A stretch of 39,744 nucleotides of DNA from Ruminococcus sp. (GTDB lineage: Bacteria > Bacillota > Clostridia > Oscillospirales > Ruminococcaceae), in NCBI GenBank assembly GCA_017542125.1, contig JAFXXU010000025.1, forward strand, positions 1 to 39,744, read 5' to 3'. Below the pieces are notes generated by a model that made no database searches, was not told the DNA's origin, and saw nothing but the letters and a program-made list of their open reading frames with translations. Within the stretch, counting starts at the first letter, position 1; each line of letters opens with the position of its first letter. Position numbers and translations under genes: made by a program. Positions 1 through 39,744 of the stretch are shown one piece after another.

Positions 1-192
1 GGCAACACCGCACGACCCCTGTGCATCAGATGCGCCGTCCAGATTTTCGTCAGATTGCCTAAATTCGACGCAGGCTTGCAAGCGAAGTTCACTTCGCTTT
101 ACGCAACGTCAAGGAGAATTTGGGTGATATGACGGAAAGCTGGCAAGCAGATGATGTGCAGAGGCGCTAGCCGCGGGTCGTGCGGTGTTGCC
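1..192 (-). repeat. MITE-like element, copy A (reverse orientation)
   Basis: The first 18 bases (GGCAACACCGCACGACCC) are the exact reverse complement of bases 175-192, so the element has perfect 18-bp terminal inverted repeats. Its reverse complement aligns end to end with the elements at 32138-32309 and 37325-37496. It is 20 bp longer because the central hairpin differs: here it is AAGCGAAGT (80-88), a 2-nt loop, and ACTTCGCTT (91-99). It encodes nothing convincing and no transposase. The window begins exactly at its end, so a target duplication on that side cannot be checked. It lies upstream of the dockerin gene at 362. Confidence 0.85.
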
Positions 193-4832: not shown

Positions 4833-5612
4833 ATGACACGACGCAGAAGAAAAAAAGGTTTCTGGCAGCAGAGCAGGGAAGCACTGGTGATCTGGGGCTC
4901 ACTGGCCGTCGCCGCAGCAGCGGGGATAGTGCTGCTGATATATGCCTCGGTGCTGGGACTCAGGGCGCACAAGGCCCATACCGTTGAGCCGCTGACCACT
5001 GAGCAGATAATCAGGACCAACACCGCTCAGGCGGATAAGCTGATGGTATTCGCCCACCCCGACGACGAAGTACTCTGGGCAGGCGGGCATCTTATGGAGG
5101 GCGGCTGGCTCTGCGTCTGCATAACAAACGGCAGGAACGATACCCGTAAGGAGGAATTCCTGAAGGTCATCGATGCCTCGGGGAACACCCCTATGATACT
5201 CGAATACCCCGATAAGGTCAACGGCGAGCGGGATGATTGGAATGCGGTCAGAGACGGTCTGTTAAAGGATCTTGAGCTGCTGGTGGGCTATAAGAAATGG
5301 TCGGTGATAGCGACCCACAATCCCGATGGGGAGTACGGGCATATCCACCATCTGATGACCTCGGATCTGGTGACTGCCGCCTGCATAAACTGCGGCGTCA
5401 AGGACAAGCTGATGTATACGGGGGACTATTACAAGAAGGAGAATCTCCCGGCTGTGGAGAGCCGCCTTGAAAGGCTCCCGGAAGAGCAGATCGAGTTCAA
5501 GAATTATCTGCTGGGCTTTTACAAGTCTCAGGCATCTACGATAGAGAAGCTCTCGCATATGGTCCCCTATGAGATGTGGGAGCCTGCCGAGGGCTGGAGG
5601 GACAGAAGGTAA
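4833..5612 (+). CDS. Membrane-anchored PIG-L/LmbE family deacetylase (copy 1)
   Basis: A 259-residue zinc-dependent N-deacetylase of the PIG-L/LmbE family, which removes acetyl groups from N-acetylglucosamine-type sugars. Visible signatures are A-H-P-D-D-E with His75, Asp77 and Asp78, and G-E-Y-G-H-I-H-H with His170, His172 and His173. A very basic N-terminus (R-R-R-R-K-K) precedes one transmembrane segment at about residues 18-42, so the positive-inside rule puts the catalytic domain outside the membrane. GGGGTAAT precedes the ATG. The stop codon overlaps the start of the next gene by one base (TAATG), which argues for coupled translation. It is a paralogue of the gene at 26827-27597. The actual substrate is unknown; a GlcNAc added by the adjacent YfhO protein is the natural candidate. 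Confidence 0.85.
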   Translation: MTRRRRKKGFWQQSREALVIWGSLAVAAAAGIVLLIYASVLGLRAHKAHTVEPLTTEQIIRTNTAQADKLMVFAHPDDEVLWAGGHLMEGGWLCVCITNGRNDTRKEEFLKVIDASGNTPMILEYPDKVNGERDDWNAVRDGLLKDLELLVGYKKWSVIATHNPDGEYGHIHHLMTSDLVTAACINCGVKDKLMYTGDYYKKENLPAVESRLERLPEEQIEFKNYLLGFYKSQASTIEKLSHMVPYEMWEPAEGWRDRR

Positions 5613-22529: not shown

Positions 22530-24299
22530 TTATTCCTTTATCTCTGTCCAGTTGGAGAAATCCCTGGCGTCGCCGTTGACGCGGTAGCGGTTCAGCTTTT
22601 TGAATCTGCCGCCGGTCTTCCAGCTGAAGGGGTTGAATATCCTCTCGATATGCAGATCACCCTCGATGATATCGTTGTAGGAATACCCGAAATCGCTGTG
22701 GTCGATGCCCATATATTCCAGCACCGAGGCAGCCAGATAGTCGTTGGAGAGCTCGGCGCTGCTGTCGGTGAGCAGGGGAGCGGAGGCCGCACCTGCGGGC
22801 TTGACCATAAGCGCCGAGACGTTTTCGTGCTCGATCTGCTCCTTGTCCTCAAAGTCGATCTCGTCGTGGACGCGGCCGTGGTCGGCGAAGATTATGATAT
22901 TGGTCTTGTCGTAGATGTCCAGCCGTTTCAGCTCGTCGAAGTACCTAAAGAGTATTTCAAACTCCCCGCGGGTGGTGGTGTAGACATCCGTCTCAAAGGG
23001 CTCATCCTTGTAATAGAGCTTTGATACCCTCTCGCTCACCGCGTGGGAGCCGTTGAGGTGGATGATGTTTACCGTGGGGGCGGGGCTGTCGGCGGCAAGA
23101 TCGTGGGAGGTTATGTAGTCGTTGAATTTCAGGTCGGAGCTAACGCCCACGAAGGAGGGGATGATCTCCGGCTCATATTCCTCCTTGTAGCGGATGAACT
23201 CGCCGGATACATCGGAGTCCAGGCTGCCGGCGAAGAAGAATTTCGCCCAGTAGGGCGTCAGCTTCGCCAGGGACAGCCGGGTCATGGTGAAGTAGATGCC
23301 CTTTTTGCCGAAGAGGTTGAAGCCGTCCCGCATATCCTCGGAGCTGACAAGGTTATCGCACCTGCCAGAAAGCTGTGAAACGCTGCTGTAAGCCGAGGAG
23401 CCGTCTATCGCCAGATTGACCCGCACGCCGTTCTCCTTCAGCGCATCGGGGAGGGTGCGCCTGTCCCAGGCGGCGTTTAGGTACTCGGTCTTGGAGCCGT
23501 ACTCGTAATCGTCAAAGTAGAATTTCGTCAGCGTCGAGGGCAGGGAGGGGAAGGTGTTGGTGTAGTGGGAGATGTTGTTGCGGTAGTAGGTGAAGCCCTC
23601 CAGCTTTTCCGAGAGCTCCGGGTATTTTTCAAGCAGCTCGTCCGCCCAGCCGCCGTCGAAGCGGTCAACGAGAAATACCACCGTGTTCTTCTCGGGTGAG
23701 AGGGAGGTCAGGGGGGCATAGGTGAACACCTCGTCATAGGCCTTGGCAGCACCCTCGGCACCCGCCTTGCGCATACTGTCGGTAAAGCCGAAGCCCTGCA
23801 TAAGTATCATCACGCCGCAGAGATAAGCGGGGAGGTATTTTATAAACGTGTTCCCCTCGGCAGCCTTTTTCCGGGCAAGGATGATGCCTATGACCGTGGG
23901 TGCCGCCGCTATGAGCAGGAAGATCGCCCCGTTGACGACCATCCCCGCCGTGGAGCCGGTGTAGAGCCCGTCGCCGGTGATCTGGTGCATCTGCCCGTTA
24001 AAGAGCAGCGACTGGAAATAGAAGGCCAGCGTCAGCCCCAGGAAGATATGTGTCACAGCAAAGAAGACACTCCGGCCCAGCAGCCTCGTCAGCATAAACA
24101 GCAGCATCAGCCCTGCCGATACCGCCAGACCCAGCAGCAGCATGGGCAGCAGTATGTCCGAGGCATTGGCGGTGAAATCCTGCTGGTTGCCGTAGACTAT
24201 CTCCATAGGCGAGAAGAAGAACACCGTCAGTCCCAGGCAGAGCGCCAGCGCCGCCGCAAAGACCATATCCCTTTTCTCAAAGCGTTTCTGTTTCTCCAT
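22530..24299 (-). CDS. Membrane alkaline-phosphatase/sulfatase-superfamily enzyme
   Basis: 589 residues. The ATG at 24299 was chosen for the AGAGGAGA site in front; a start 13 codons earlier overlaps the YfhO gene more deeply. Five hydrophobic segments fill residues about 12-175. An extracellular catalytic domain follows, in the layout of LtaS-like phosphoglycerol or phosphoethanolamine transferases. The metal acid is in F-L-V-D-R-F-D-G (Asp212/Asp215), candidate nucleophiles are Thr247 or Thr249 in H-Y-T-N-T-F-P-S, and a metal-site A-D-H-G motif lies near residue 480. It overlaps the upstream YfhO gene by 23 bp, so it belongs to the same operon. It may modify the same surface polymer as YfhO and PIG-L; sulfatase, phosphatase or transferase activity cannot be told apart here. 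Confidence 0.75.
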   Translation of the reverse strand: MEKQKRFEKRDMVFAAALALCLGLTVFFFSPMEIVYGNQQDFTANASDILLPMLLLGLAVSAGLMLLFMLTRLLGRSVFFAVTHIFLGLTLAFYFQSLLFNGQMHQITGDGLYTGSTAGMVVNGAIFLLIAAAPTVIGIILARKKAAEGNTFIKYLPAYLCGVMILMQGFGFTDSMRKAGAEGAAKAYDEVFTYAPLTSLSPEKNTVVFLVDRFDGGWADELLEKYPELSEKLEGFTYYRNNISHYTNTFPSLPSTLTKFYFDDYEYGSKTEYLNAAWDRRTLPDALKENGVRVNLAIDGSSAYSSVSQLSGRCDNLVSSEDMRDGFNLFGKKGIYFTMTRLSLAKLTPYWAKFFFAGSLDSDVSGEFIRYKEEYEPEIIPSFVGVSSDLKFNDYITSHDLAADSPAPTVNIIHLNGSHAVSERVSKLYYKDEPFETDVYTTTRGEFEILFRYFDELKRLDIYDKTNIIIFADHGRVHDEIDFEDKEQIEHENVSALMVKPAGAASAPLLTDSSAELSNDYLAASVLEYMGIDHSDFGYSYNDIIEGDLHIERIFNPFSWKTGGRFKKLNRYRVNGDARDFSNWTEIKE

Positions 24300-26823
24300 T
24301 CTTGTCTCCTCTGTTCTTTCTCTTGCTAAGAAGCTCATATCCCGCAGTGAGCAGGAAGAGTGCCGCCCCGATGCAGGAAAGCAGCTTGCCCTCCCGCAGC
24401 AGCGGAGCCGTAAAGGTCAGGCTCACGGTGTGCTCCCCTTTTTCCAGGGGCAGGCCGATAAAGGCCTTGTCAACACATTCATATTCTCTCTTTTCCCCGT
24501 CGATGCAAAGCTCAAAGCCACGGTCATAGGGCACCGAGAGCATAAGATAGCCCTCCCGGGTGCAGCTGACCTTGCCGTAAAGGCTGTCGCCCCGGGTCTT
24601 TTCCTTGTCGAGGATAAGGGCGTCATATTCGGTATCATCGGGATAGCTGATGATACGTGCACGGATGTCCGAAAGGTGATAGTCCCCGGCGGTGAGCCTT
24701 ACCTTCAGAATATCGAAGGCACCCTCCTGCGGGGCGATGACGTAAGTGAAAAGGGTGTTGTTGTTGTAGTATTTCCAGTCGGGGGCGGTGAGCTTGTTGC
24801 CGACACCGTTTATCGTCATCTTCACATCCCCGCGGGTGCCCTCGGTGTTGTCGCAGTCAAGCTCCAGCACCAGCAGCTTATCCTCCGGGACGGTAAAACC
24901 GAGGGGGATGACCGTATTGAAGCTCTCCTCCGCTCTGACCCGGACGCCGCCCTTCTCGGGGGTGAACCTGCTGTCCTCAGGGAAGCCGACGGTCAGTTCA
25001 TCGGAGGCATCGGAGGAAAACTCTCCCCCCGTCCCGACTATGACTCTGCTCACAAGGGCGTCCATCTTTTCCGCATCGTTGAGCCCGTCGAAGACGTCCT
25101 CGCCCAGCGTCGGCTGAACGCGCCCCACGGGCAGGGCATTTGTGTTCCGGTAGAGGTACATCCCGTCCCTGTCGGCGACATATTCATAGCCGAAGGGGGC
25201 CTTCTCCGATCTGGAATACAGGAACCGGTTTGAAATGAACATCTCGAAGAAAGGATTCTGCGAGCGGGTGGTGAGGGCCGAGTTGCGGTACTCGTTCTCG
25301 TTGTTTATAACGTCGAAATAGAAGCTGTTGTAATCCTTATGGTGAACGCTGGAATAGATGTAGGGACTGTAAAAGTCCGCCGTGGGTACCACATTCACCG
25401 TGTCCACACGCCTCTCGGCTATTGAGCTGCGCCAAACGCTCTCATCCTCTGAGGCGATATCGCAGAGTTCCTCATAGGGGTCGGGCTCGAGATATTTGAC
25501 CAGCTCCAGCTCGGCGGGGGGATCGGTGATGTTCAGCACCACCGCCGATACCAGAGGAACGGCTATCAGCGCCCCCGCGAGACCCTTGATGCTGTGCTTT
25601 TTCAGATACAGAAGCAAAGCTCCTGCCAGGACCAAAAGGTCTGTGCACATCCCGATAACTATGAACAGCTCATAGCCGGTGTAGTCGGAGAATATGAGCC
25701 CCGTGGCAAATGCCGCAGCGGTAAGCACCGCCGCCGTCCCGACTGTCCTGCCGGCCTTTGCATCCTCAAGCATATCCGAGCAGAGCAGCAGAAACAGGGG
25801 GATAAAGGGTATCAGCACCTTGCCGTCCAGATACATGGTGCCGTTTAAGACGAATACAGTTACCGGCAGGAATGACAGCCCCGCCAGAACTATCCCCAGG
25901 AAACGCCTGGCTCTGTCCTTGGAGAGCACCGCCAGCAGTACCGCCAGCAGCGCCGCCAGCCCCAGCCCCGTGGAGTAGGGCGAGAGCCCGAAGGTCTCGA
26001 ACCGCAGCCCGGGGATAAGGTCGGTAAGCGTGAACTCGCTGTTGGATTTGTCCCGCCCCGAGGTGAGGACGTGTACGGTGGGCAGCAGCAGAACTCCCGC
26101 CATCATCACGGCGTTCAGCACCCGCAGGGCAAAGCTCCCCGCCGCCTTGAAGAACCGGGCAGCCGTGGGGGCTTCTTCCTCGGAGAGGAACCTGTATATC
26201 CCGTAGACCGTCACCGCCGCCAGCGCCGAAACGCTGAAAAACCAGCTGGTCATTATTATCAGGAAGCACCAGAGGGTCAGCTGCCACTTGTGCCTGCCCT
26301 CAAAGAACATATCCACCGCCTCAAAGGCCAGGATAAGAAAGGGCATATAGCTGATGAACATTATATGCCTGTGGGCGTGGAGGAATACCGGCGAGGCTGA
26401 AAGATAGGTCAGCATCAGCAGCAGGGAGCGCCTGCGGCTCAGACGCTTGCGCAGGAACCTGTAAAGCAGAACCGCCCCCAGCCAGCAAAGCACAGCCGAG
26501 GATACCTGTATATACACCGACATCTTCACAAAGGGCAGCAGGTAAGAAAATAAAATAACAGGCGAGAGCAGCCCGTAGTAGGAGAGATAGTAGATGTTCT
26601 CTCCCGCGCCGAGACCCGGCGCGAAGCTGGGGAAAAGCTCGCCTGTCTGATAAAAAAGCTTTCTGAAATAATCGGGTATAGCAAAGTGCTGGCTCGACCA
26701 GTCAAGGCTGGAGCCGAAGGCCAGGGTGAAATGGGTGCAGAGAATAACAGCAGCGGCGAAACCGATGCCTGTAAGGGCAAGTATCCGGCAGTCGGTGCGG
26801 TCAAGACGTCTGCGCTTTTCCAT
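24277..26823 (-). CDS. YfhO-family polytopic membrane protein, probable extracytoplasmic glycosyltransferase (copy 2)
   Basis: 848 residues with the same plan as the protein at 5612-8098: about a dozen transmembrane segments, a long extracytoplasmic C-terminal part and a final membrane segment. Shared blocks include W-S-S-Q-H-F-A-I-P-D, G-A-G-E-N-I-Y, H-A-H-R-H-I-M-F-I and Y-E-C-V-D-K-A-F-I-G. By eye the N-terminal third is well over half identical, and the middle of the membrane region diverges most. The start lies 3 bases after the PIG-L stop, with GGAG in the 3' end of that gene. The longer 3' end overlaps the sulfatase-fold gene. A role in sugar decoration of a surface polymer follows from the YfhO family. 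Confidence 0.75.
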   Translation of the reverse strand: MEKRRRLDRTDCRILALTGIGFAAAVILCTHFTLAFGSSLDWSSQHFAIPDYFRKLFYQTGELFPSFAPGLGAGENIYYLSYYGLLSPVILFSYLLPFVKMSVYIQVSSAVLCWLGAVLLYRFLRKRLSRRRSLLLMLTYLSASPVFLHAHRHIMFISYMPFLILAFEAVDMFFEGRHKWQLTLWCFLIIMTSWFFSVSALAAVTVYGIYRFLSEEEAPTAARFFKAAGSFALRVLNAVMMAGVLLLPTVHVLTSGRDKSNSEFTLTDLIPGLRFETFGLSPYSTGLGLAALLAVLLAVLSKDRARRFLGIVLAGLSFLPVTVFVLNGTMYLDGKVLIPFIPLFLLLCSDMLEDAKAGRTVGTAAVLTAAAFATGLIFSDYTGYELFIVIGMCTDLLVLAGALLLYLKKHSIKGLAGALIAVPLVSAVVLNITDPPAELELVKYLEPDPYEELCDIASEDESVWRSSIAERRVDTVNVVPTADFYSPYIYSSVHHKDYNSFYFDVINNENEYRNSALTTRSQNPFFEMFISNRFLYSRSEKAPFGYEYVADRDGMYLYRNTNALPVGRVQPTLGEDVFDGLNDAEKMDALVSRVIVGTGGEFSSDASDELTVGFPEDSRFTPEKGGVRVRAEESFNTVIPLGFTVPEDKLLVLELDCDNTEGTRGDVKMTINGVGNKLTAPDWKYYNNNTLFTYVIAPQEGAFDILKVRLTAGDYHLSDIRARIISYPDDTEYDALILDKEKTRGDSLYGKVSCTREGYLMLSVPYDRGFELCIDGEKREYECVDKAFIGLPLEKGEHTVSLTFTAPLLREGKLLSCIGAALFLLTAGYELLSKRKNRGDKNGETETL

Positions 26824-26826
26824 TTA

Positions 26827-27597
26827 TTATCTCCATTCCTTTGCGGGCACCCACATCTCGTATTTTATAATGTGTGAGAATTTATCTATCGTTCCCTCCT
26901 GCGAGGAGTAGATCGTTAGCATCTGGTTCTTGAATTCCAGCTGCTCGGAGGTGATGGGCGTCATTTCCGATTCGTGCTCGCCGATCTTTCCGGCTGAGTA
27001 ATACTTTCCGAAATACATCAGCCTGTCCAGCATACCCTTCTCGGCGCAGACACCGGTGACTATGTTCGAGGTCATAACGTGGTGCTCGTGACCGTACTCG
27101 CCTTCTGGGTTATGGGTGGCTATCACTGACCAGTCCTTGTAATTGAGCAGCGAGAACACATCCCGCTCGATGCCCTGATAAACGTCGCTCCAGTTATCCC
27201 GCATAAAGTTCACCTTGTCGGGGTATTCGAGTATCAGCGAGTTGTTGCCGGAGGCGTACACCGCCTTTTCAAATTCGGCTGAGCGGGTGCTGCTGCGTCC
27301 GTTGGTGATGCACACCACGAGCCAGCCCCCCTCGGCAAGATGCCCTCCGCCCCAGATGGCTTCATCGTCCGGGTGAGCGACGATCATCAGCTTATCGCTG
27401 CTGCCGCCAGCCGCCAGATAGATCTGCCCTGCGGTAAGGGTCTTTACGTCGTGGGCGCGGTAGACGTTTATGAGCATAGCTCCCACTATTATAAGGAACA
27501 GCAGCGCAAAAGCAGCCGCCCCCAGGGCGATGCCCCGGACGGCAAGCGTCTTTTTGTCGCCTGTTATCAGCTTTTTGAAGATCTTCTTCAGGAACAT
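26827..27597 (-). CDS. Membrane-anchored PIG-L/LmbE family deacetylase (copy 2)
   Basis: 256 residues, paralogous to the gene at 4833. The H-P-D-D-E motif is again at residues 75-79 and the second motif is G-E-Y-G-H-E-H-H. A lysine-rich N-terminus and one transmembrane segment (about residues 20-45) predict an extracellular catalytic domain. Conserved blocks shared with copy 1 include E-G-G-W-L, C-I-T-N-G-R, E-Y-P-D-K-V-N and W-S-V-I-A-T-H-N-P. First gene of a three-gene unit with the YfhO and sulfatase-fold genes, behind a near-consensus promoter at 27652-27680. Confidence 0.85.
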   Translation of the reverse strand: MFLKKIFKKLITGDKKTLAVRGIALGAAAFALLFLIIVGAMLINVYRAHDVKTLTAGQIYLAAGGSSDKLMIVAHPDDEAIWGGGHLAEGGWLVVCITNGRSSTRSAEFEKAVYASGNNSLILEYPDKVNFMRDNWSDVYQGIERDVFSLLNYKDWSVIATHNPEGEYGHEHHVMTSNIVTGVCAEKGMLDRLMYFGKYYSAGKIGEHESEMTPITSEQLEFKNQMLTIYSSQEGTIDKFSHIIKYEMWVPAKEWR

Positions 27598-30999: not shown

Positions 31000-32137
31000 T
31001 CTGTTTTTTAAAGTGCTGAAAAAGAAATATGTAGCGGCGCTGGTTTTCATAGTTGTGTTCCTTGTGATCTCCTACGGCCTCTCAAACAGCGAAGATCATA
31101 CGACGGAATTCAAGGAGTCGGTCCTGGATGTGGCTGTTATGGACGAGGACGGCACCGAGCAGTCCAAGGCTCTGACCGAGTTCATCGGCAAGAAGCACCG
31201 CATCAAGAACGTTGACAGCGACCGCGAGAATATGACGGAGCTCCTCTACTGGGAGGAAGTGGATTACATCCTGGTTATCAAGAAGGGCTTCGCCGGGAAC
31301 CTGGCAGGGGGCTCGGATGAGCTCTTTGAGGAATACCGCGTCCACGACAGCTTCTCGTCGGTCTATATGTCAAACATCCTCAATGAGTATGTAAAGACCG
31401 CCCGGGCATATATCGCCTCCGGCGCCGATGCCGAGGCCGCTTCCCGCATGACCTCCGAGACTCTCGGCAGGGATACGGAGGTCACCTACTGGAGCGATAT
31501 GGGCCAGGGCCCCGAGGAATACTCCAGGTGGTTCGCTCATTATTTCCAGTATATGCCCTATATCCTCATCTCCGTGATGCTTTCGGCTCTTGGAACGGTG
31601 CTGGGCTCCCTCAACAAGAGAAATGTCCGCGCCCGCACCGACTGCTCCTCCCTCTCTCCGAGGAAAGCTACCGTACAGCTCTTTGCGGCATCGGCGGTGT
31701 TCGTCATCGTGATCTGGCTGATCTTTATTATCGCGGGAGCTCTGATGAAGGGCGGTATGTACGAGGGCAAGGCCTGGCTGGCAGTGCTCAACTCCTTCGT
31801 GTTCACCATAGTAGCAGCAGCCATAGCCATGCTGGTATCCTCCTTCGACCTGGACGATAACGTGGTATCCCTGATAACGCAGATCGTAGGCCTGGGCATG
31901 AGCTTCCTCTGCGGCATATTCGTGCCACTCTCTATGCTCTCGGAGGGCGTCATCTCGGTGGCAAGGTTCCTGCCCGGATACTGGTACATCAGAGCCAACG
32001 ATATGCTCTGCGGAACGACTGCTTTCTCGGCGGGTGAGTTCGCAGTATGCATTGCTATCCAGTTCGGCTTTGCGGCAGTGCTGCTGATAGCCACAATGGC
32101 GGTAAGAAGATCCAAGGCAAAGGATGCAGTTTACTGA
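30986..32137 (+). CDS. ABC-2 type transporter, permease subunit 2
   Basis: 383 residues with the same plan as subunit 1: first membrane segment at about residues 15-30, an external domain carrying V-A-V-M-D-E-D-G-T-E-Q and Y-I-L-V-I-K-K-G-F, then five further segments. Its AGGAGG-type site (ACAAGGAGGCGC) lies inside the 3' end of subunit 1. The stop codon TGA is part of the 4-bp sequence CTGA duplicated around the MITE-like element that follows at once. Confidence 0.88.
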   Translation: MQVFDLFFKVLKKKYVAALVFIVVFLVISYGLSNSEDHTTEFKESVLDVAVMDEDGTEQSKALTEFIGKKHRIKNVDSDRENMTELLYWEEVDYILVIKKGFAGNLAGGSDELFEEYRVHDSFSSVYMSNILNEYVKTARAYIASGADAEAASRMTSETLGRDTEVTYWSDMGQGPEEYSRWFAHYFQYMPYILISVMLSALGTVLGSLNKRNVRARTDCSSLSPRKATVQLFAASAVFVIVIWLIFIIAGALMKGGMYEGKAWLAVLNSFVFTIVAAAIAMLVSSFDLDDNVVSLITQIVGLGMSFLCGIFVPLSMLSEGVISVARFLPGYWYIRANDMLCGTTAFSAGEFAVCIAIQFGFAAVLLIATMAVRRSKAKDAVY

Positions 32138-32309
32138 GGCAACACCGCACAACCCACGGCTAACGCCTCTGCACGTCATCTGCTTGCACTTTTTCCGTCA
32201 TAGTACACAAATTCTCCTTGCCGGGCGCTAGCCCGCCTGCGTCGAATTTATGCACTCTGACGAAAAAATTGACTGCGTATCTGACGCACAGGGGTTGTGC
32301 GGTATTGCT
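32138..32309 (+). repeat. MITE-like element, copy B, with 4-bp target duplication
   Basis: A 172-bp element. The left end GGCAACACCGCACAACCC (32138-32155) and right end GGGTTGTGCGGTATTGCT (32292-32309) are inverted repeats matching at 16 of 18 positions. CTGA flanks it on both sides (32134-32137 and 32310-32313). The internal hairpin is CGGGC-GCTA-GCCCG (32222-32235). It is identical in length and orientation to copy C at 37325-37496. It lies between the exporter stop and the terminator at 32321. Confidence 0.9.
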
Positions 32310-32320
32310 CTGATATAAAA

Positions 32321-32360
32321 CCCAAGCGCTCCGCAGGAGATCTCCCGCGGAGCGCTTTTT
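32321..32360. terminator. Bidirectional terminator between the ABC exporter and mgtE
   Basis: AAGCGCTCCGC (32324-32334) and GCGGAGCGCTT (32347-32357) form an 11-bp stem with a 12-base loop, followed by T tracts on the plus strand (TTTTT) and less strongly on the minus strand (GGGTTTTAT). It serves the convergent exporter and mgtE genes. Confidence 0.9.
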
Positions 32361-32373
32361 CCGTGATACGGAC

Positions 32374-33774
32374 TTATGTGAAGCTGAATATTTTCAAAAG
32401 CAGCAGCCAGCTCATGCCGTAGTAGGTCACTACCGCCACCAGGTCGTTGACGGTGGTGATCAACGGCCCCGATGCAACGGCGGGGTCAACTCCCACACGC
32501 TTGAAGAACAGGGGTATCAGCGTGCCCACCGCGCTGGATATCAGCATAGCCAGCAGCATCGAAAAGCCTATGCACCCCGATACCGCAAAGGAGAAGGCCA
32601 GCGCCCGGTGCTTGAAGAAGTAGATATACAACCCCACGAACAGGAAGGATACCGCACCCAGAAGCGTCCCGTTGCAGAAGCCTACCCGCATCTCTTTCAG
32701 CACCAGATGCCCCTTCTGAGAGAAGGTAAGGTTCTCGTCCATCAGCACCCGGATAGTCACCGCAAGGGACTGGGTCCCCACGTTACCTGCCATATCAAGT
32801 ATCAGCGACTGGAATGCCATTATGATGGTCAGCTGCGCGATGACCTGCTCGAACACGCCCACCACCGAGGATACCAGCATACCCAGCCCCAGCAGTATCA
32901 GCAGCCAGGGGAGGCGCTTCTTCATACTCTGGCGCAGAGGCTCTTTCAGATCCTCCTCCGCGGTCAGACCTGCGAGACGGGCGTAGTCCTCGCTCATTTC
33001 ATCATCTACTACCTCGATAAGGCTCTTGGCGGTGATGACGCCCAGCAGCTTGCTGGAATCGTCCAGCACAGGGATGGAGTCCTCGGAGTAGTCCTTCAGC
33101 TTTTCGATACAGTCGTCGATGCTCTCCCTGGCGTAGACGTAGGGGAAGCTGGTGACGATCAGATCCTCCAGAGAGGCGGAGCTCCGTGCGGTTATGAGCT
33201 CCTTAAGGTCTATCGCCCCGTAGAACTCATCGTTCTCATCGGTGACGAATATGGTCGATATGTTGTCGTTTTCCTCCGCCTGACGGATCAGCTCGCTCAT
33301 AGCCTGCTTGATAGTCAGGTTCTCGCGGATAACGATGCAGTTGGTGGTGGTGCGGCTTCCGATCTCGTCCTCGTCGAAGGAGGCGATGAGCTTTATCTCA
33401 TCCCGGATATCCTGGGGCAGCGCACCGATGATAAGTGAGCGCTTGTCCTTTTCCACCTCGTGGAGCACTCCGGCAGCCGTGTCCGTCTCCAGCCGTGAGA
33501 CAACATCGGCAGCCTTATTGACATCCATTTCCGCGATACAGGCCCCCGCGGTATCCTCCTCGAGATACTCGAAGATCTCCGAGAGCATTTCCGCCTGGCA
33601 GACGCGGAAGAGCTTCTTTCTGTCGGCAGCGGTGAAGCTTTCCATAGCCTGGGCTATGTCGCTGCCGTGATAGTCCTCCAGCTTTTCACATAGGGACTTG
33701 GGGGAGTCATTCCCCCTGATCAGCCGAAGTATCTCCTCGGCATAATCCTGTCTTACAATGGTATTCTCGCCCAT
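32374..33774 (-). CDS. mgtE: Magnesium transporter MgtE
   Basis: 466 residues from the ATG at 33774, which follows GGGGTGAT; a GTG three codons earlier overlaps that site. Cytoplasmic MgtE N-domain (about residues 20-130, helical, D-I-A-Q-A-M-E-S-F), then two CBS domains (about 130-260, with I-F-V-T-D-E-N-D-E-F and S-I-P-V-L-D-D-S-S-K-L-L-G-V-I), then five membrane segments forming the pore, including the N-V-G-T-Q-S-L-A filter-region motif. It is a Mg2+ channel gated by internal Mg2+. The M-box-like leader upstream fits magnesium control. Confidence 0.95.
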   Translation of the reverse strand: MGENTIVRQDYAEEILRLIRGNDSPKSLCEKLEDYHGSDIAQAMESFTAADRKKLFRVCQAEMLSEIFEYLEEDTAGACIAEMDVNKAADVVSRLETDTAAGVLHEVEKDKRSLIIGALPQDIRDEIKLIASFDEDEIGSRTTTNCIVIRENLTIKQAMSELIRQAEENDNISTIFVTDENDEFYGAIDLKELITARSSASLEDLIVTSFPYVYARESIDDCIEKLKDYSEDSIPVLDDSSKLLGVITAKSLIEVVDDEMSEDYARLAGLTAEEDLKEPLRQSMKKRLPWLLILLGLGMLVSSVVGVFEQVIAQLTIIMAFQSLILDMAGNVGTQSLAVTIRVLMDENLTFSQKGHLVLKEMRVGFCNGTLLGAVSFLFVGLYIYFFKHRALAFSFAVSGCIGFSMLLAMLISSAVGTLIPLFFKRVGVDPAVASGPLITTVNDLVAVVTYYGMSWLLLLKIFSFT

Positions 33775-33806
33775 TACGATCACCCCGCTTTGAAATATTG
33801 GGGCAT

Positions 33807-33834
33807 AAAAAAGCCCCTCGCAGCTGCAAGGGGC
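33807..33834 (-). terminator. Attenuator terminator in the mgtE leader
   Basis: On the minus strand, GCCCCTTGCAGCTGCGAGGGGC (positions 33834-33813) forms a long stem with one mismatched pair around a GCAGCTGC core. TTTTTT follows at 33812-33807, about 30 bases ahead of the mgtE start. It is the expected off-switch of the riboswitch. Confidence 0.9.
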
Positions 33835-33844
33835 GATGGTATCT

Positions 33845-33975
33845 CAAAAAAGCTCAATGCAAATCAGAGGGCTGACCTGTAACGGACAGCTCTCCGCCGC
33901 ATATTGCCGATACGAAACACCGTCGCCCGACGCTACTGCAACTGTCGCCGCCTGTCATAGCCCTCACCTCACAAT
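33845..33975 (-). ncRNA. M-box-like magnesium riboswitch
   Basis: On the minus strand the leader begins with an A-G-G-T-G-A-G-G-G-C-T block, close to the M-box hallmark AGGTGAGGCT. The inner part has GCGTCGGGCGACGG, comparable to the M-box GTC...GACGCC hairpin. The 3' side has TGTCCGTTACAG, comparable to TGTCC..TACAG in known M-boxes, then AGCCCTC, which closes the outer helix with GAGGGCT. A terminator follows, and the gene controlled is a Mg2+ transporter. It is divergent from the B. subtilis example, so a covariance-model search should decide. Confidence 0.7.
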
Positions 33976-34007
33976 GATTGGGATAGGGTCGCTTACGACC
34001 CATAGAT

Positions 34008-34036
34008 ATTATAGCATTTTAATGCTTTTGTGTCAA
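34008..34036 (-). promoter_or_regulatory. Consensus sigma-A promoter for mgtE
   Basis: Minus strand: TTGACA (34031-34036), 17-base spacer and TATAAT (34008-34013). Both hexamers are perfect. It gives a leader of about 230 nt that contains the riboswitch and terminator. Confidence 0.9.
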
Positions 34037-34075
34037 TAGAAATATATTGCTTGTAAATGTCTGTAAGCTGCCTGC

Positions 34076-34837
34076 TCACACGCCCTTGTAGCGCTTTAAG
34101 AACTGCTTGGTGCGCTCGTTCTGGGTGTTTCCGAAGAGCTCCGCAGGGTCGCCCTCCTCGACGATGAAGCCGCCGTCCATAAAGATAACGTGATTTGAAA
34201 CATCACGGGCAAACTCCATCTCGTGAGTCACGATGACCATAGTCATCTTCTCCTCCGCAAGCTCCTTGATGACTTTCAGTATCTCCCCCGTCAGCTCGGG
34301 GTCGAGAGCTGAGGTGGGCTCGTCAAAGAAAAGGACGTCGGGTTTCAAGGCCAGAGCTCTTGCAATGGAGACTCTTTGCTGCTGACCGCCGGAAAGCTCG
34401 CAGGGGTAGGACTTCTCCTTGCCAGTGAGACCCATCTTGCCGATGAGCTCCTGTGCGGTCTTTATCGCATCCTGCTTGGGCTGTTTCAGCACCCTGAAAG
34501 GCGCCTCGATTATGTTCTGCATCACCGACATATGGGGGAAGAGATTGAAGTTCTGGAACACCAGCCCGATCTTAAGGCGTATCTCCCGCAGAGTTTTCTT
34601 TGGGGCATAGATCGCTTTGCCGTTCTCGGTGCGGAGCATATTCATCCCGCAGACGTTTATCTCGCCGCCGTCGGCGTGTTCAAGCTGATTGATGCAGCGC
34701 AGCAGGGTGGATTTTCCCGAACCCGAGGGGCCTATCACCGAGACCACCTGTCCCTCCTCTACGCTGAAGGATATATCCTTCAGGACTTTCAGATCCCCGA
34801 ATGTCTTTGATAGGTTCTTCACCTCTAGTATTGCCAT
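34076..34837 (-). CDS. Polar amino acid ABC transporter, ATP-binding protein
   Basis: 253 residues of the GlnQ/HisP type. Walker [13 protein letters not shown] at about residues 34-45, Q-loop [11 protein letters not shown], signature L-S-G-G-Q-Q-Q-R, Walker [14 protein letters not shown] and switch His in V-T-H-E-M. The sequence around F-N-L-F-P-H is typical of amino-acid importers. It lies 14 bases downstream of its permease gene. The specific amino acid cannot be read from the ATPase. Confidence 0.93.
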
Positions 34838-34851
34838 ACCGTTTCTCCCGT

Positions 34852-35562
34852 TTATTTATAGTAGTTGTAGTGCTTTTCCAGAAAATGGAATGCTATCGTG
34901 ACTATCGCGTTGAGCACGAAGTAGAAAAGTCCCGCGATGAACAGGGGCATTATGGAGCTGTAGGTGTTCATCATCTGCTTGGCTTTCAGCATTATCTCGG
35001 CATAGGCGATTATGGTCGCCAGGGATGTATCCTTTACCAGCACGATGACCTCGTTGCCCGTGGCGGGGATGACCCGCTTTATCACCTGGGGGAGTATGAC
35101 CCGGAAAAAGGTCTGCATACGGGTGAGACCAAGCATCTGCGCTGCCTCGTACTGCCCCACGGGTATGGACTCTATGCCGCCGCGGAAGATCTCGGCAAAG
35201 TAGGCGGCGTAGTTCAGCGAGAAGGCCACGATCAGGGTGATGAACATATAGTTCTCCGAGTGCATAAAGTCATCCAGGACTTCGATGAAGCCCCCGGTGC
35301 TCCCCGAGTCGCGGGCGTTCTTGACCAGCATCGGTATAGCGTAGTAGGCCGCCACGATCTGGAGCATCAGCGGCGTTCCGCGCATAATGAGTATGTAAAT
35401 GTTCGTCAGCCAGGAAACGGGCTTGAACCGGCACTTTTTCAGCCACGCCACGATAACTCCCAGAGGTATCGAGAACAGCAGCGTGAAGAAGAAAAGCTTC
35501 AATGTATTGGGAAGATACTCCATAAGTATCTTCGAGACATTTTTTATATCGTCAAAGCTCAA
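34852..35562 (-). CDS. Polar amino acid ABC transporter, permease
   Basis: 236 residues from a TTG start at 35562. It is a His/Glu/Gln/Arg/opine-family permease with five membrane segments, the N-terminal T-L-K-L-F-F-F-T-L motif and the EAA loop [22 protein letters not shown] longer frame starting with GTG at 35604 is ruled out because that codon overlaps the -10 box. GGAGG at 35572-35576 lies 9 bases before the TTG at 35562; another TTG at 35568 is too close. No solute-binding protein gene is in this window. Confidence 0.88.
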
Positions 35563-35595
35563 GAGCAAGGACCTCCGATCAATAAGGCTGCTTTG

Positions 35596-35624
35596 ATTAT
35601 ACACTATTTTCCTGTATACGTCAA
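35596..35624 (-). promoter_or_regulatory. Sigma-A promoter for the amino acid ABC transporter
   Basis: Minus strand: TTGACG (35619-35624), 17-base spacer and perfect TATAAT (35596-35601). It fixes the transcription start near 35588 and so decides the translation start of the permease. Confidence 0.85.
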
Positions 35625-35695
35625 GACGAGGCGGAAAATTGAAGGAGTTTCTCCGAAAAGCAGGAAAGTCCGCAAGAAATGGTTAATCCTGACAG

Positions 35696-35724
35696 TTGAT
35701 TTGGCAAGGCTTATGTGATATAAT
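35696..35724 (+). promoter_or_regulatory. Sigma-A promoter for the MATE gene
   Basis: TTGATT (35696-35701), 17-base spacer and perfect TATAAT (35719-35724). The predicted ~200-nt leader contains the whole inverted-repeat element at 35738-35916. Confidence 0.75.
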
Positions 35725-35737
35725 ACAGGGTGAGCAG

Positions 35738-35916
35738 TTTACAATGCACAATTAAGGCTTCGGCGGCTTTGCTTAGTGCTGTCTGCGGGCCGTGCATTTT
35801 AACAGCTTCACAAGTGTACCTGCCTGCGCCCGGCAGTCTGCCCGAGACGGGCAATTTGAACGCTTCTCCCTCACATCAATGTGAGCGAAGCGAACTCCGC
35901 AATTGTGCATTGAAAA
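35738..35916. repeat. Third type of inverted-repeat element in the MATE gene leader
   Basis: CAATGCACAATT (35742-35753) and AATTGTGCATTG (35901-35912) are perfect 12-bp inverted repeats about 170 bp apart, and similarity extends a few bases outward. Inside are hairpins TGCCCG-AGA-CGGGCA and TCACAT-CA-ATGTGA. There is no coding capacity and no clear target duplication. The ends resemble abundant CAATGCACAATT intergenic repeats I recall from related genomes. It separates the MATE promoter from its ribosome site. Confidence 0.65.
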
Positions 35917-35934
35917 AGAAAAGAGGTCATCCGA

Positions 35935-37323
35935 GTGAGCGCGTCAGGACGTATAGATATGCTGAACGGTCCGCTTTGGAATAAAATACTGAGGTTTGCC
36001 CTCCCCCTTGCCCTGACGGGCATTTTGCAGCAGCTTTTCAACGCTGCGGATATCGCTGTGGTGGGGCAGTTCTCCGGCGGTGACGGCGAGGCGGCCAAGG
36101 CAGCCATCGGAGCCAACACCCCCATCATACATCTGATAATCAACACCTTCATAGGTATTGCCCTCGGCACCAATGTGTTTATCGCAAACGCCGTGGGCAG
36201 CCGGGACGACGCTGCGGTGAGCAAGGCCGCCCATACCTCGGTGAGCGTTTCCTTCCTGGCGGGGTTTGTCATCGCCGCGGTGGGTGAGCTGCTTGCCGAG
36301 CCCATACTCTCCTCCCAGAATGTCCCCGAGAATGTGCTGCCTATGGCGGTGCTCTATTTCCGCATCTATTTGACCGGCGTCCCCGTGATACTGCTTTACA
36401 ACTTCGAGTCGGCCATCTTCCGCGGGGTGGGCAATACCAAGACGCCTCTTATCATACTGATGCTGGCAGGTGTGCTGAACGTGCTGTTCAATCTCTTCTT
36501 CGTCATCATGCTGGGGATGTCGGTGGCGGGAGTCGCTCTGGCGACGGTCATCTCCAACGCCGTCAGCTCCGGGCTGCTGTTTTTCAGGCTGCTCCGCTCC
36601 GAGGGACCCACAAAGCTCTCCTTTAAGAAAATGCGCCCCGATAAGCGGGTGCTGCTGAGAATTCTCCGCATAGGCGTTCCGGCAGGAGTGCAGTCAGCGG
36701 TGTTCTCCGGGGCGAATATGCTGATACAGAGCGCTATCAACACTCTCGGCAGCGCTGTAATGTCGGCCTCCAGCGCCGCCCAGAACCTGGAGGGCATAGC
36801 TTATTTCGTCCTCAACAGCTTCGGGCAGGCCTGTACCACCTTCGTCGGTCAGAATTACGGTGCCGGTAAGATAGACCGCTGCAAGCGCTCGCTGAGGATA
36901 GCATATCTCGAGGGCATAGCCGCCACAGCTGCGGCAATAGGGATAATTCTCTTCTCGGGCAGGTCCCTGCTCTCACTCTTCGGCGGCAGCGACGAGGTCA
37001 TTGAGATAGGCTATACCAGGCTCATAATCATCTTCACGGCATATTTCTTCTCCCTGACCTACGATACCTTCTCCGGATACCTCCGGGGCTTCGGCATCTC
37101 GGCGCTTCCCGCGCTGCTGACTATGGCAGGCATCTGCGGCATAAGGATAACCTGGATATACCTTGTCTTCCCGAAATACGAGAGCTTCAAGTGCATAATG
37201 ATTGTCTACCCCCTGAGCCTTGGCACCACAGCGGTGCTTATCCTGGGAGCGGTGCTGATCATCCGCCCCGCAAAACGGGCAAAGCGTGCTATGGAAAAAG
37301 CCGCCCTGAATACCGAACAATAA
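35935..37323 (+). CDS. MATE family efflux transporter
   Basis: 462 residues with 12 predicted membrane segments in two homologous halves. The start is GTG at 35935 after AGAGGT; the first internal ATG would remove the conserved amphipathic opening before L-P-L-A-L-T-G-I-L-Q-Q-L-F-N-A-A-D. The N-terminal D-M-L-N-G-P-L-W-N-K-I and the second-half V-P-A-G-V-Q-S and F-G-Q-A-C-T-T-F-V-G-Q-N-Y-G-A-G motifs are typical of DinF/NorM-like MATE exporters, which expel drugs or metabolites using Na+ or H+. Its substrate is unknown. The stop TAA is part of the TAAA duplicated around the element that follows. Confidence 0.92.
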   Translation: MSASGRIDMLNGPLWNKILRFALPLALTGILQQLFNAADIAVVGQFSGGDGEAAKAAIGANTPIIHLIINTFIGIALGTNVFIANAVGSRDDAAVSKAAHTSVSVSFLAGFVIAAVGELLAEPILSSQNVPENVLPMAVLYFRIYLTGVPVILLYNFESAIFRGVGNTKTPLIILMLAGVLNVLFNLFFVIMLGMSVAGVALATVISNAVSSGLLFFRLLRSEGPTKLSFKKMRPDKRVLLRILRIGVPAGVQSAVFSGANMLIQSAINTLGSAVMSASSAAQNLEGIAYFVLNSFGQACTTFVGQNYGAGKIDRCKRSLRIAYLEGIAATAAAIGIILFSGRSLLSLFGGSDEVIEIGYTRLIIIFTAYFFSLTYDTFSGYLRGFGISALPALLTMAGICGIRITWIYLVFPKYESFKCIMIVYPLSLGTTAVLILGAVLIIRPAKRAKRAMEKAALNTEQ

Positions 37324-37324
37324 A

Positions 37325-37496
37325 GGCAACACCGCACAACCCGCGGCTTGCGCCTCTGCACGTCATCTGCTTGCAGATTTTCCGTCATAGCACACAAATT
37401 TTCCTTGCCGGGCGTCAGCCCGCCTGCGTCAAATTTATGCACTCTGACGAAAAATCTGACTGCGCATCTGACGCACAGGGGTTGTGCGGTATTGCC
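37325..37496 (+). repeat. MITE-like element, copy C, with 4-bp target duplication
   Basis: 172 bp, the same length as copy B. GGCAACACCGCACAACCC (37325-37342) and GGGTTGTGCGGTATTGCC (37479-37496) are terminal inverted repeats matching at 17 of 18 positions. TAAA flanks it at 37321-37324 and 37497-37500. The central hairpin is CGGGC-GTCA-GCCCG (37409-37422). It fills nearly the whole gap between the MATE stop and the GH25 gene, leaving 33 bases with the ribosome site and no independent promoter. Confidence 0.92.
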
Positions 37497-37529
37497 TAAA
37501 CGCTCCGGCAGAAAGGACGGAATGATCCT

Positions 37530-39713
37530 ATGAGATTTTACAGAGCCGCTGCATCGCTGGCAATGGCGGCTGTTATGCTGTTCGCCCCGGCGGCGGAGAG
37601 CTTCGGGAAGGATGCTGCGGTCACAGCTCCCGAGGAACAGCCTGCGGCAGCAGTAACGGTAACAAATGCTGTTTCGGAAGCCCCCGCAGAGGTGCAGGCC
37701 GAGGCCGCCCTCCCGGAGGAGCAGAAGCCCGCTAAGGCGGTGATCCTTTCGGAGGACACCACAGCCGTATATGTTACAGACCTCCGGGGAGATGTGCTTG
37801 AGGACGAGGAAGCCATCCCGGAGCCGGAGGAGGCGCTGCCCGAGGAGATCGAGGCTGAGCGCCGCTACATCGCACAGAACCCGGAGCTGGCAGCCATGGG
37901 GGCGGTCATCCCCGAGGGGAGCGACGTTCCCGTTGCGGAATGTGATGCGGGCTTCCACAAATATGTGGCCTCGCTGATGAGAAATCAGGGCATGACTGTC
38001 TCCTTAAACAAGCTGGCGCTGCCCGTTACCCTTAACGCCATCGCCATTTCCGGCGCTGACAGCCTGATACATCAGGAGCGTTTCGCCAACTGCATCAAGA
38101 CCTTCGGCACCGATGTTTCGGAATTTCAGGGGAACATCGACTGGGTAAAGGTCAAGGCGGCGGGGATAGATTTCTGCATACTCAGAGCGGGCTACCGGGG
38201 CTACGGCAAGAAGGGCACCCTGGTGCTCGACCCCAAGTTCGTCAACAACTTAAAGAACGCCAAGGCGGCGGGTCTCAAGGTGGGCGTTTACTTCTTCACT
38301 CAGGCCATCACCGTGGCAGAGGCTAAGGAAGAGGCGGATTTCGTTTACCAGTACATAAAGGGCTACAGCCTTGACCTCCCCGTTTACTGCGATATGGAGG
38401 AGATATACTACGACACCGGCAGGCTGGATTCCGCCAACCTGACAATGGCCCAGAAGACTGCCATCATCGAGGCCTTCTGCGACAGGATACTGGCGCTGGG
38501 CTACGAGGCGGGAGTTTACTCAAACCCCAGCTGGATGACCTACTACCTTGACCGCGCCAAGCTGGAGGCCAAGTACCCCATATGGCTGGCGAATTACGTC
38601 AAGGAGACAAAGTATCAGTACAAGTTCAACATATGGCAGTACGATACGGGGACGATAAACGGCATATCCGGCGCTACGGATATGGATGTCAAGTACGACC
38701 CCGCAGTTCCCGGGACGGTGACGGGCTTCACCTGCACCGGAGCCACCTCAAACTCCCTCACCTTCAAGTGGGACGAGCAGGAGAACCCCTGCCAGTCCTA
38801 TCAGGTGGTTAGATATGATCCAACCAATATGTCCTACACCGTGGTGGGGACCACCAACACCTGCACCTTCACCCTTAAGAACCTGCAGCCCCTCACCAGC
38901 GCACAGTACACCGTAAGGGGGCTCAACACCTTCAACGGCAAGAGCTACTTGGGTCAGCTCTGCGCGGCTGTGAAGACTATGACCCTCTGCACCCCCGTTT
39001 CGGAGCTGAAAGCGGAGGCCAGCGGCAGATCTCTGGCCATCAGCTGGAAGAGCTCCGATGCCTCGCTGACACATCTTGTCTATGTGGGCAGCGGCTCGGC
39101 GGCACCCATTTGCGTGGGGATGGTACAGGGTGAGAGCTACGTTTACCCCTGCAAGGAGGGGGCCTACACGGTATTCATAAGATCCTGCCTGAGATCCGGA
39201 GGCAAGCTGCTGGGGCAGAACGATTCTGCTTCGGTGAATGTCAGCGTAGGAGCCGTCAGGGCGGAGGCGGAGATCAGGAGCGTGGGCAAGGACAGCATCA
39301 CCATCGGCTGGAACAATGCTGTCACGGCTGACAAGTGCCGCATCTACTGGATAGACGAAAAGTCCGGCTCGGAGCTGCTCATCGACGAGGTAAATGCTTC
39401 GGCGGGAGAATACGTTTGTGCGGGGCTGAAGCTCTCGGAGCGGTACACCTACCGGGTGGACACCCTTTACGGCGGGAACGTCACCGAAAGCTCGGCGCTG
39501 CTGACGGCGGTAACGAGGAACGGCCTGGCGGGTGATCTCAACAGCGACGGCAAGGTGAATATGCAGGATATGTGGCTGCTGAAAATGTATCTCAACGGCA
39601 AGGCAAAGATCGACACCACCAACGCCGATCTGAACTGCGACAAGGTCGTTGACGATAAGGATCTTGAGATGTTCGCAAGGATCATCGCGGGGTCGTCGGA
39701 AAAAATGGTATAA
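37530..39713 (+). CDS. Secreted GH25 lysozyme-like dockerin protein
   Basis: 727 residues. Signal peptide at about 1-27, then an alanine/glutamate/proline-rich linker and spacer to about residue 185. A GH25 muramidase domain spans about 191-390: F-G-T-D-V-S-E-F-Q-G-N-I-D-W with catalytic Asp195, Y-F-F-T-Q-A and Y-C-D-M-E-E. Such domains cut the bacterial cell-wall glycan. Two or three fibronectin III-like domains follow (about 392-660; F-T-C-T-G-A-T-S-N-S-L-T-F-K-W opens the first). A type I dockerin ends the protein (about 667-725) with loops D-L-N-S-D-G-K-V-N..D and D-L-N-C-D-K-V-V-D..D. A cohesin-bound cell-wall hydrolase is the simplest reading. The start at 37530 follows a modest AAAGGA site. 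Confidence 0.9.
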   Translation: MRFYRAAASLAMAAVMLFAPAAESFGKDAAVTAPEEQPAAAVTVTNAVSEAPAEVQAEAALPEEQKPAKAVILSEDTTAVYVTDLRGDVLEDEEAIPEPEEALPEEIEAERRYIAQNPELAAMGAVIPEGSDVPVAECDAGFHKYVASLMRNQGMTVSLNKLALPVTLNAIAISGADSLIHQERFANCIKTFGTDVSEFQGNIDWVKVKAAGIDFCILRAGYRGYGKKGTLVLDPKFVNNLKNAKAAGLKVGVYFFTQAITVAEAKEEADFVYQYIKGYSLDLPVYCDMEEIYYDTGRLDSANLTMAQKTAIIEAFCDRILALGYEAGVYSNPSWMTYYLDRAKLEAKYPIWLANYVKETKYQYKFNIWQYDTGTINGISGATDMDVKYDPAVPGTVTGFTCTGATSNSLTFKWDEQENPCQSYQVVRYDPTNMSYTVVGTTNTCTFTLKNLQPLTSAQYTVRGLNTFNGKSYLGQLCAAVKTMTLCTPVSELKAEASGRSLAISWKSSDASLTHLVYVGSGSAAPICVGMVQGESYVYPCKEGAYTVFIRSCLRSGGKLLGQNDSASVNVSVGAVRAEAEIRSVGKDSITIGWNNAVTADKCRIYWIDEKSGSELLIDEVNASAGEYVCAGLKLSERYTYRVDTLYGGNVTESSALLTAVTRNGLAGDLNSDGKVNMQDMWLLKMYLNGKAKIDTTNADLNCDKVVDDKDLEMFARIIAGSSEKMV

Positions 39714-39721
39714 ACAGCACA

Positions 39722-39744
39722 CGCGGAGCGTTCCGGGCTCCGCG
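39722..39744 (+). terminator. Terminator stem at the window edge, after the GH25 gene
   Basis: CGCGGAGC (39722-39729), 7-base loop and GCTCCGCG (39737-39744) form a perfect 8-bp stem that ends exactly at the window edge. The T tract, if any, lies outside. Confidence 0.65.

Follow-up and report, generated by a model that had tools for sequence, protein, structure and literature searches.

A high-copy family of miniature inverted-repeat elements, probably moved by an IS5-family transposase, in a Ruminococcus genome

Elements at the locus

The window analyzed here, a contig (C23) of 39,744 nucleotides taken at its full length from the 2.9-Mb draft genome of a Ruminococcus sp. (G000; 91 contigs, 90.5% completeness), carries three short repeats with common ends, which are very probably miniature inverted-repeat transposable elements (MITEs). 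Two are complete copies of 172 bp, each standing at the end of an open reading frame (ORF) for a transport protein, and the third is an inverted copy of 192 bp at the start of the contig. The initial annotation had recognized these three elements, their shared ends and the CTGA/CTGA and TAAA/TAAA flanks of the two complete copies, and direct reading bears it out on each of these points. The features are as follows.

32138..32309, forward strand: MITE of the 172-bp subfamily, by direct reading; flanks CTGA/CTGA
32138..32155, forward strand: left terminal inverted repeat of this first 172-bp MITE, beginning GGCAACACCGCACAACCC
32292..32309, reverse strand: right terminal inverted repeat of the same MITE, reverse complement AGCAATACCGCACAACCC, differing from the left at 2 of 18 positions
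32134..32137, no strand: left target duplication CTGA, which includes the TGA stop (32135-32137) of the ABC-2 permease ORF
32310..32313, no strand: right target duplication CTGA, by direct reading
37325..37496, forward strand: MITE of the 172-bp subfamily; its ends differ at 1 of 18 positions; flanks TAAA/TAAA
37321..37324, no strand: left target duplication TAAA, which includes the TAA stop (37321-37323) of the MatE-family ORF
37497..37500, no strand: right target duplication TAAA, by direct reading
1..192, reverse strand: MITE of a diverged 192-bp subfamily, 18-bp ends identical, with copies at 98-99% in its own genome
30986..32137, forward strand: ABC-2 type transporter permease ORF, 383 aa (PF12698, E 6.8e-29), ending in the first duplication
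35935..37323, forward strand: MatE-family transporter ORF, 462 aa (PF01554, E 4.3e-45), ending in the second duplication
32374..33783, reverse strand: MgtE divalent cation transporter ORF (PF01769, PF03448, CBS), convergent with the permease ORF
37530..39713, forward strand: ORF with GH25, fn3 and dockerin domains (PF01183, PF00041, PF00404), downstream of the MITE at 37325-37496

The inverted orientation of the 192-bp element was established by comparison with a third copy. The element begins with the very first base of the contig, so that its left flank lies beyond the contig end and only the right flank (TATA) is visible.

A high-copy family with duplicated targets

The 18-bp end repeats in the source genome are not a product of chance: the end pattern GGCAANACCGCACNACCC, with at most 2 mismatches, matches the genome 246 times, as against 2 for the reversed control. 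From the own-genome loci that were fetched, 41 complete, non-redundant elements were taken, a set that excludes copies lying 30 bases or less from a contig end, the window element at 1-192 among them. Their sizes are 172 bp in 25, 171 bp in 1, 188-192 bp in 10, 210-216 bp in 3, 230 bp in 1 and 60 bp in 1, this last being a near-palindrome built of the two ends; elements of 55, 60 and 79 bp are present in congeners. The 41 elements (171-230 bp, and one of 60 bp) lie within the 50-1000 bp expected of MITEs, bear 18-bp terminal inverted repeats and leave no room for a transposase gene, in agreement with the non-autonomous character already proposed for them. Repeats of this kind also sit at many of the contig ends of these draft genomes.

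The search of the whole genome and its relatives that the initial annotation had recommended yielded many copies in both. With at most 1 mismatch, the end pattern occurs at least five times in 8 of 15 congeners, with 5 to 254 matches each, and once, possibly by chance, in one more; it is absent from the other 6 and, outside the genus, is found in 2 of 45 genomes.

An exact 4-bp duplication flanks 35 of the 41 own-genome elements, and the 4-mers, when listed, are centered on TTAA: TTAA itself in 21 cases, CTAA in 3, TATA and TAAA in 2 each, and CTGA, CAAG, TATG, TTAG, TTTA, TTAC and TTGA once each. When the right flanks were shuffled among the elements (10,000 shuffles), the mean number of matches was 14.3 and the maximum 22, and for targets other than TTAA 14 duplications were observed against a shuffled mean of 0.8. 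The 4-mers standing 1, 2, 3, 5 or 8 bases farther out match in none of the 41. Among 24 elements sampled from six congener genomes, 15 have an exact 4-bp duplication, which is TTAA in 10.

Sites without the element were sought with 12 joined-flank queries against 16 genomes of the genus, and a congener alignment spanning the junction was obtained for 4 of the 12, with seven alignments in total, five of which were aligned base by base. In the clean case, G010:C39 lacks the element found at G000:C56:21257-21428 and has a single TTAA within a run of 19 identical bases; the alignment as a whole has 80% identity, and its left flank shows small gaps immediately ahead of that run. The three other junctions are weaker: G014, G002 and G001 lack the element at G000:C40:16767, and G008 lacks that at C49:28109, the junctions in both cases showing small gaps or differences; the remaining two spanning alignments are those of G013 (element C71:29139) and of G006 (a further alignment at the C56 junction). 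Empty sites in relatives, which the initial annotation had advised looking for, were found for the C56 element in G010 and for neither of the window copies.

An IS5-family insertion sequence with the same ends

The autonomous transposon that such elements would need, and whose search had also been suggested, was found in a congener. At G007:C16:33878-34984 (L156:820-1926) there is an insertion sequence of 1107 bp bounded by GGCAACACCGCACAA and GGCAATACCGCACAA, with CTAA duplicated on both sides, whose two 15-bp ends are identical, base for base, to those of the MITEs. It carries an intact gene for a transposase of 322 aa with the domains PF05598 (DUF772) and PF01609 (DDE_Tnp_1), and the protein scores 290 bits against the NCBIfam model of the IS5 family, NF033581 (cut-off 140, E 1.6e-86); its inverted ends and 4-bp target duplication are likewise those of that family. 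The blocks GTIVDST, YGDSGYL and KVEH, which we take to be the D-D-E of a DDE transposase, are conserved in six aligned transposases, except that L350 is without the first block. No solved structure resembles the L156 transposase by sequence, the one match having an E of 0.31.

A domain search for PF05598 in 12 genomes gave matches in 4, and a search with the transposase protein in 16 genomes of the genus gave matches in 5 (G007, G014, G010, G005 and G000). These comprise an internally deleted copy of 660 bp in G014, with flanks TTAA, truncated copies in G010 and, as a second one, in G007, and a weak fragment in G005; in the source genome itself, at C54, there is a relic of the right end of the insertion sequence, with 89% identity over 167 bases.

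Of 297 genomes sampled across the family, 10 have a transposase match at E 1e-60 or better, and 11 of the 16 new transposase loci were examined. The sequence GGCAAYACCGCA is present at one end or both in all five genomes with transposases 54-66% identical (G146, G178, G225, G217 and G177); the 4-bp flanks are identical at G146 (L340, CATA) and at one G178 copy (L349, TTAA), those of G225 differ, and a single end was recognized in G177 and in G217, the gene of the latter containing two stops. At the five loci of 41-44% identity, belonging to four genomes (G195, G324, G236 twice, G224), no ends of the GGCAAYACCGCA type were found. As read from these loci, MITE-type ends go with the closer relatives of the transposase. 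Several copies of another related insertion sequence, which has ends GGCAATACCGCACAAACC and in most cases TTAA-like flanks, occur in each of G324, G162 and G017, its interior being lost at contig ends. At G178:C6 (L341, L349, L351-L355) there are seven matches to an IS5-family element, including three pairs about 1.4 kb apart and arranged head to tail; two of these seven were among the loci examined.

Carriage by phages or plasmids was considered and rejected, an exact MITE end occurring in one IMG/VR stretch (L210) alone. The end pattern of the insertion sequence from another genus has no match in IMG/VR, and the 28-aa N-terminus of its protein has no plasmid match; IMG/VR also contains many relatives of the transposase with 39-45% identity, which were set aside and are not used as evidence. 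The stretch L210 (IMGVR_UViG_3300021254_002406; 10.9 kb) starts inside a MITE (1-110) nearest to the 192-bp type, and TTAA adjoins the end of this element.

Proposed origin of the repeats

Taken together, it is highly probable that the repeats are MITEs moved by the IS5-family DDE transposase of an insertion sequence with the same ends, and inserted at TTAA-like 4-bp targets that become duplicated. The ends, the duplications and the empty site can be read in the sequences themselves, and the L156-type transposase is very probably the mover, given the matching ends, the matching targets and the shared hosts. The origin by transposition put forward in the initial annotation gains support from the duplications, the empty site and the autonomous element, and its description of the repeats as non-autonomous is complemented by the transposase found in the congener. 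The transposase would come from a full-length insertion sequence whose ends are GGCAAYACCGCAC...; when present, it would recognize the MITE ends in trans and cut out or copy the elements; these would be joined to staggered TTAA-like targets of 4 bp, which would then be duplicated. Where the insertion fell in the terminal TTAA of a gene the stop codon would be rebuilt, and this rebuilding, together with the loss of insertions within genes, would leave copies at the ends of genes and between genes.

The position of the elements was classified by mechanical ORF calls, taking as a control 169 TTAA sites in the same loci, insertion sites excluded. The 41 insertions divide into 10 that overlap a stop codon, 25 in intergenic DNA and 6 within a called ORF, and the control sites into 5, 41 and 123, respectively. 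Genes are therefore strongly avoided (6/41 within an ORF vs 123/169, p 8e-12), and the family is multicopy and mainly intergenic, as MITEs are. The initial annotation had also noted that each duplication contains the stop codon of the preceding gene, which is correct for both window copies (TGA and TAA) and does not hold as a rule, 10 of the 41 sites showing it, weakly above the control.

This overlap is what an alternative explanation would build upon, according to which the elements are functionally targeted to gene ends (stops or terminators), for example as mobile terminators or hairpins of 3′ untranslated regions. Besides the strong hairpin described below, this explanation can invoke the preference for stops among sites outside genes (10/35 vs 5/46, Fisher p 0.05). 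However, this enrichment is weak, it derives from a mechanical ORF call and is partly to be expected since TTAA contains TAA, and in simple counts the orientation of the elements has no clear relation to the flanking genes; we consider such targeting unlikely. The overlap with stop codons is mostly a by-product, because TTAA reads TAA on both strands, so that an insertion at the terminal TTAA of a gene leaves a stop codon, and because insertions within genes are rare.

Several observations weigh against the main explanation, that of MITEs moved by the L156-type transposase. No transposition has been seen. An exact 4-bp duplication is missing in 6 of the 41 own-genome elements and in 9 of the 24 from congeners, which may be decayed or recombined copies. 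No intact transposase of the L156 type was found in the source genome (a draft, 90.5% complete), and the MITE-rich congeners G001, G002, G006 and G008 gave no transposase match. Past some 16-21 bp of the end, the interior of the MITEs is unlike the insertion sequence, so that they are not simple internal deletions of it. For 8 of the 12 junctions, both window sites included, there was no spanning alignment in any congener, and at the C40 site the two aligned pieces of G013:C31 are separated by about 150 bp more than in the empty query.

From the missing transposases and the unrelated interiors it could be argued that a different transposase moves the MITEs, and that the IS5-family one has similar ends merely by descent. 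Against this, no other element with the same ends appeared among the matches listed (the first 100 of 246, in a search that was not exhaustive and in which not every unpaired end was followed), and the ends, the target and the relic all agree with the IS5-family element, which makes a different mover quite improbable. Under the IS5-family explanation, the MITE family may at present be stranded in its own genome, because the draft shows a truncated relic only.

A full-length hairpin

The elements are predicted to fold from end to end, that at 32138-32309 with -72 kcal/mol (z -6.7) and that at 1-192 with -114 kcal/mol (z -11.7) against shuffles. In an alignment of 20 sequences, 9 of the 57 predicted pairs change on both sides with the pairing kept. 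The compensated cells number 46; shuffling gave 16.8 on average, and sliding the partners gave 0-9. This count is not a significance test, as the copies are related to one another and the structure was predicted from those very sequences. In a mismatch-neutral register of 36 elements of 172 bp, 10/78 facing columns have two Watson-Crick states (43/119 weakly), and five or six of the two-state column pairs are swaps of the transversion type, which a G-U intermediate cannot bridge. This joint change of the arms could come from copying of one arm to the other during replication or from selection for the hairpin.

Shared transition mismatches give G-U on one strand in 16 columns vs 6 (p 0.052), a one-strand lean that is suggestive only, and changes confined to a single copy are balanced, 7 to 8. 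It appears doubtful that the element is more than a substrate for the transposase, with its full-length hairpin preserved on one strand as a functional structure of RNA or single-stranded DNA. Selection at the RNA level, as read from the predicted structure (G-U in 228 cells, A-C in 10), was not accepted, the count being biased by the choice of structure.

A single hairpin occupying the whole element, with such z values, with covarying arms and with mostly intergenic copies, would also suit palindromes of the REP/BIME type (repetitive extragenic palindromes and bacterial interspersed mosaic elements) or other structural RNAs, copied without target duplication, for instance by REP-associated tyrosine transposases; however, this calls for copies without duplications and for no empty sites, as the initial annotation had foreseen, and is barely credible in view of the exact duplications (35/41), the single TTAA of the C56 empty site, the DDE insertion sequence with identical ends, and the fact that nothing in the window matches Rfam at the gathering score.

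Relation to known elements

The family is a new one of a known kind of element, the IS5-related bacterial MITE. No prior description of it was found in the literature searched (MITE with Ruminococcus or Ruminococcaceae, and the 13-base end), ISfinder and most subscription journals being outside this scope. In Porphyromonas gingivalis, the MITEs BrickBuilt, MITE293 and MITE700 are described with ends of IS5-family insertion sequences (PMC4596501). As far as that account describes them, they are, like the present family, non-coding, multicopy (19 BrickBuilt in one strain) and intergenic, with ends identical or nearly identical to those of full-length IS5-family insertion sequences in their own host, and they differ in belonging to another phylum, in their ends, and in the array of 23-nt tandem repeats of BrickBuilt (PMC4596501). 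In contrast, the present family has far more copies, a TTAA-like target of 4 bp and a full-length palindrome.

With the IS5 family, the L156 partner shares the DUF772 and DDE_Tnp_1 transposase, the inverted ends and the 4-bp duplication, whereas the MITEs carry the ends only. The target of the IS5 group is YTAR, and that of the MITEs, which prefer TTAA and also use TATA, TAAA, TATG, CAAG and others, is looser.

Correia and ERIC elements are palindromic. High copy numbers have been reviewed for these bacterial MITEs, Correia with more than 120 copies and ERIC with up to 711 (PMC10969869). The likeness of the present family to them lies in the high copy number; they are unrelated by name and host, compared here by description and not by sequence, and the autonomous partner of the present family is in hand in a congener. 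The preferred TTAA target is shared with the piggyBac transposons, described as TTAA-specific (PMC7351741), but the transposase matches IS5-family models and 14 of the 35 exact duplications are not TTAA, and membership of piggyBac was rejected. REP and BIME sequences lack target duplications. REP are palindromes of 20-40 bp (PMC3733652), and the length and the target duplications of the present elements set them apart from that class.

Taken as a whole, a bacterial MITE burst is documented here almost in full: several species of the genus carry non-autonomous elements in high copy number, and the matching full-length insertion sequence is intact in one of them, has undergone deletion or truncation in others, and is present as a relic in the species studied. 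An insertion sequence of 1.1 kb and a substrate of 172 bp would make a simple system for MITE mobilization and for the upkeep of a full-length palindrome.

Other observations in the window

The stretch 37320-39744, which contains the MITE at 37325-37496 and the GH25/dockerin gene, is duplicated at G000:C43:6799-9223, with 99.9% identity over 2425 bp. The identity starts 5 bp to the left of the MITE, and the left flanks differ further out, both ending in TAAA. An origin of this duplication as a composite transposon is not claimed, as the far end lies beyond the contig and recombination between MITEs or plain duplication fit equally.

Dockerin type I domains (PF00404) terminate two proteins of the window, those encoded at 362-3286 and 37530-39713, the former also having a repeated cysteine-containing motif that is visible in the translation. 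Finally, the regions 4833-8098 and 24277-27597 hold two inverted and, judged by eye from the translations, apparently paralogous gene pairs, each pairing an ORF of about 257 aa with a large membrane ORF of some 840 aa.

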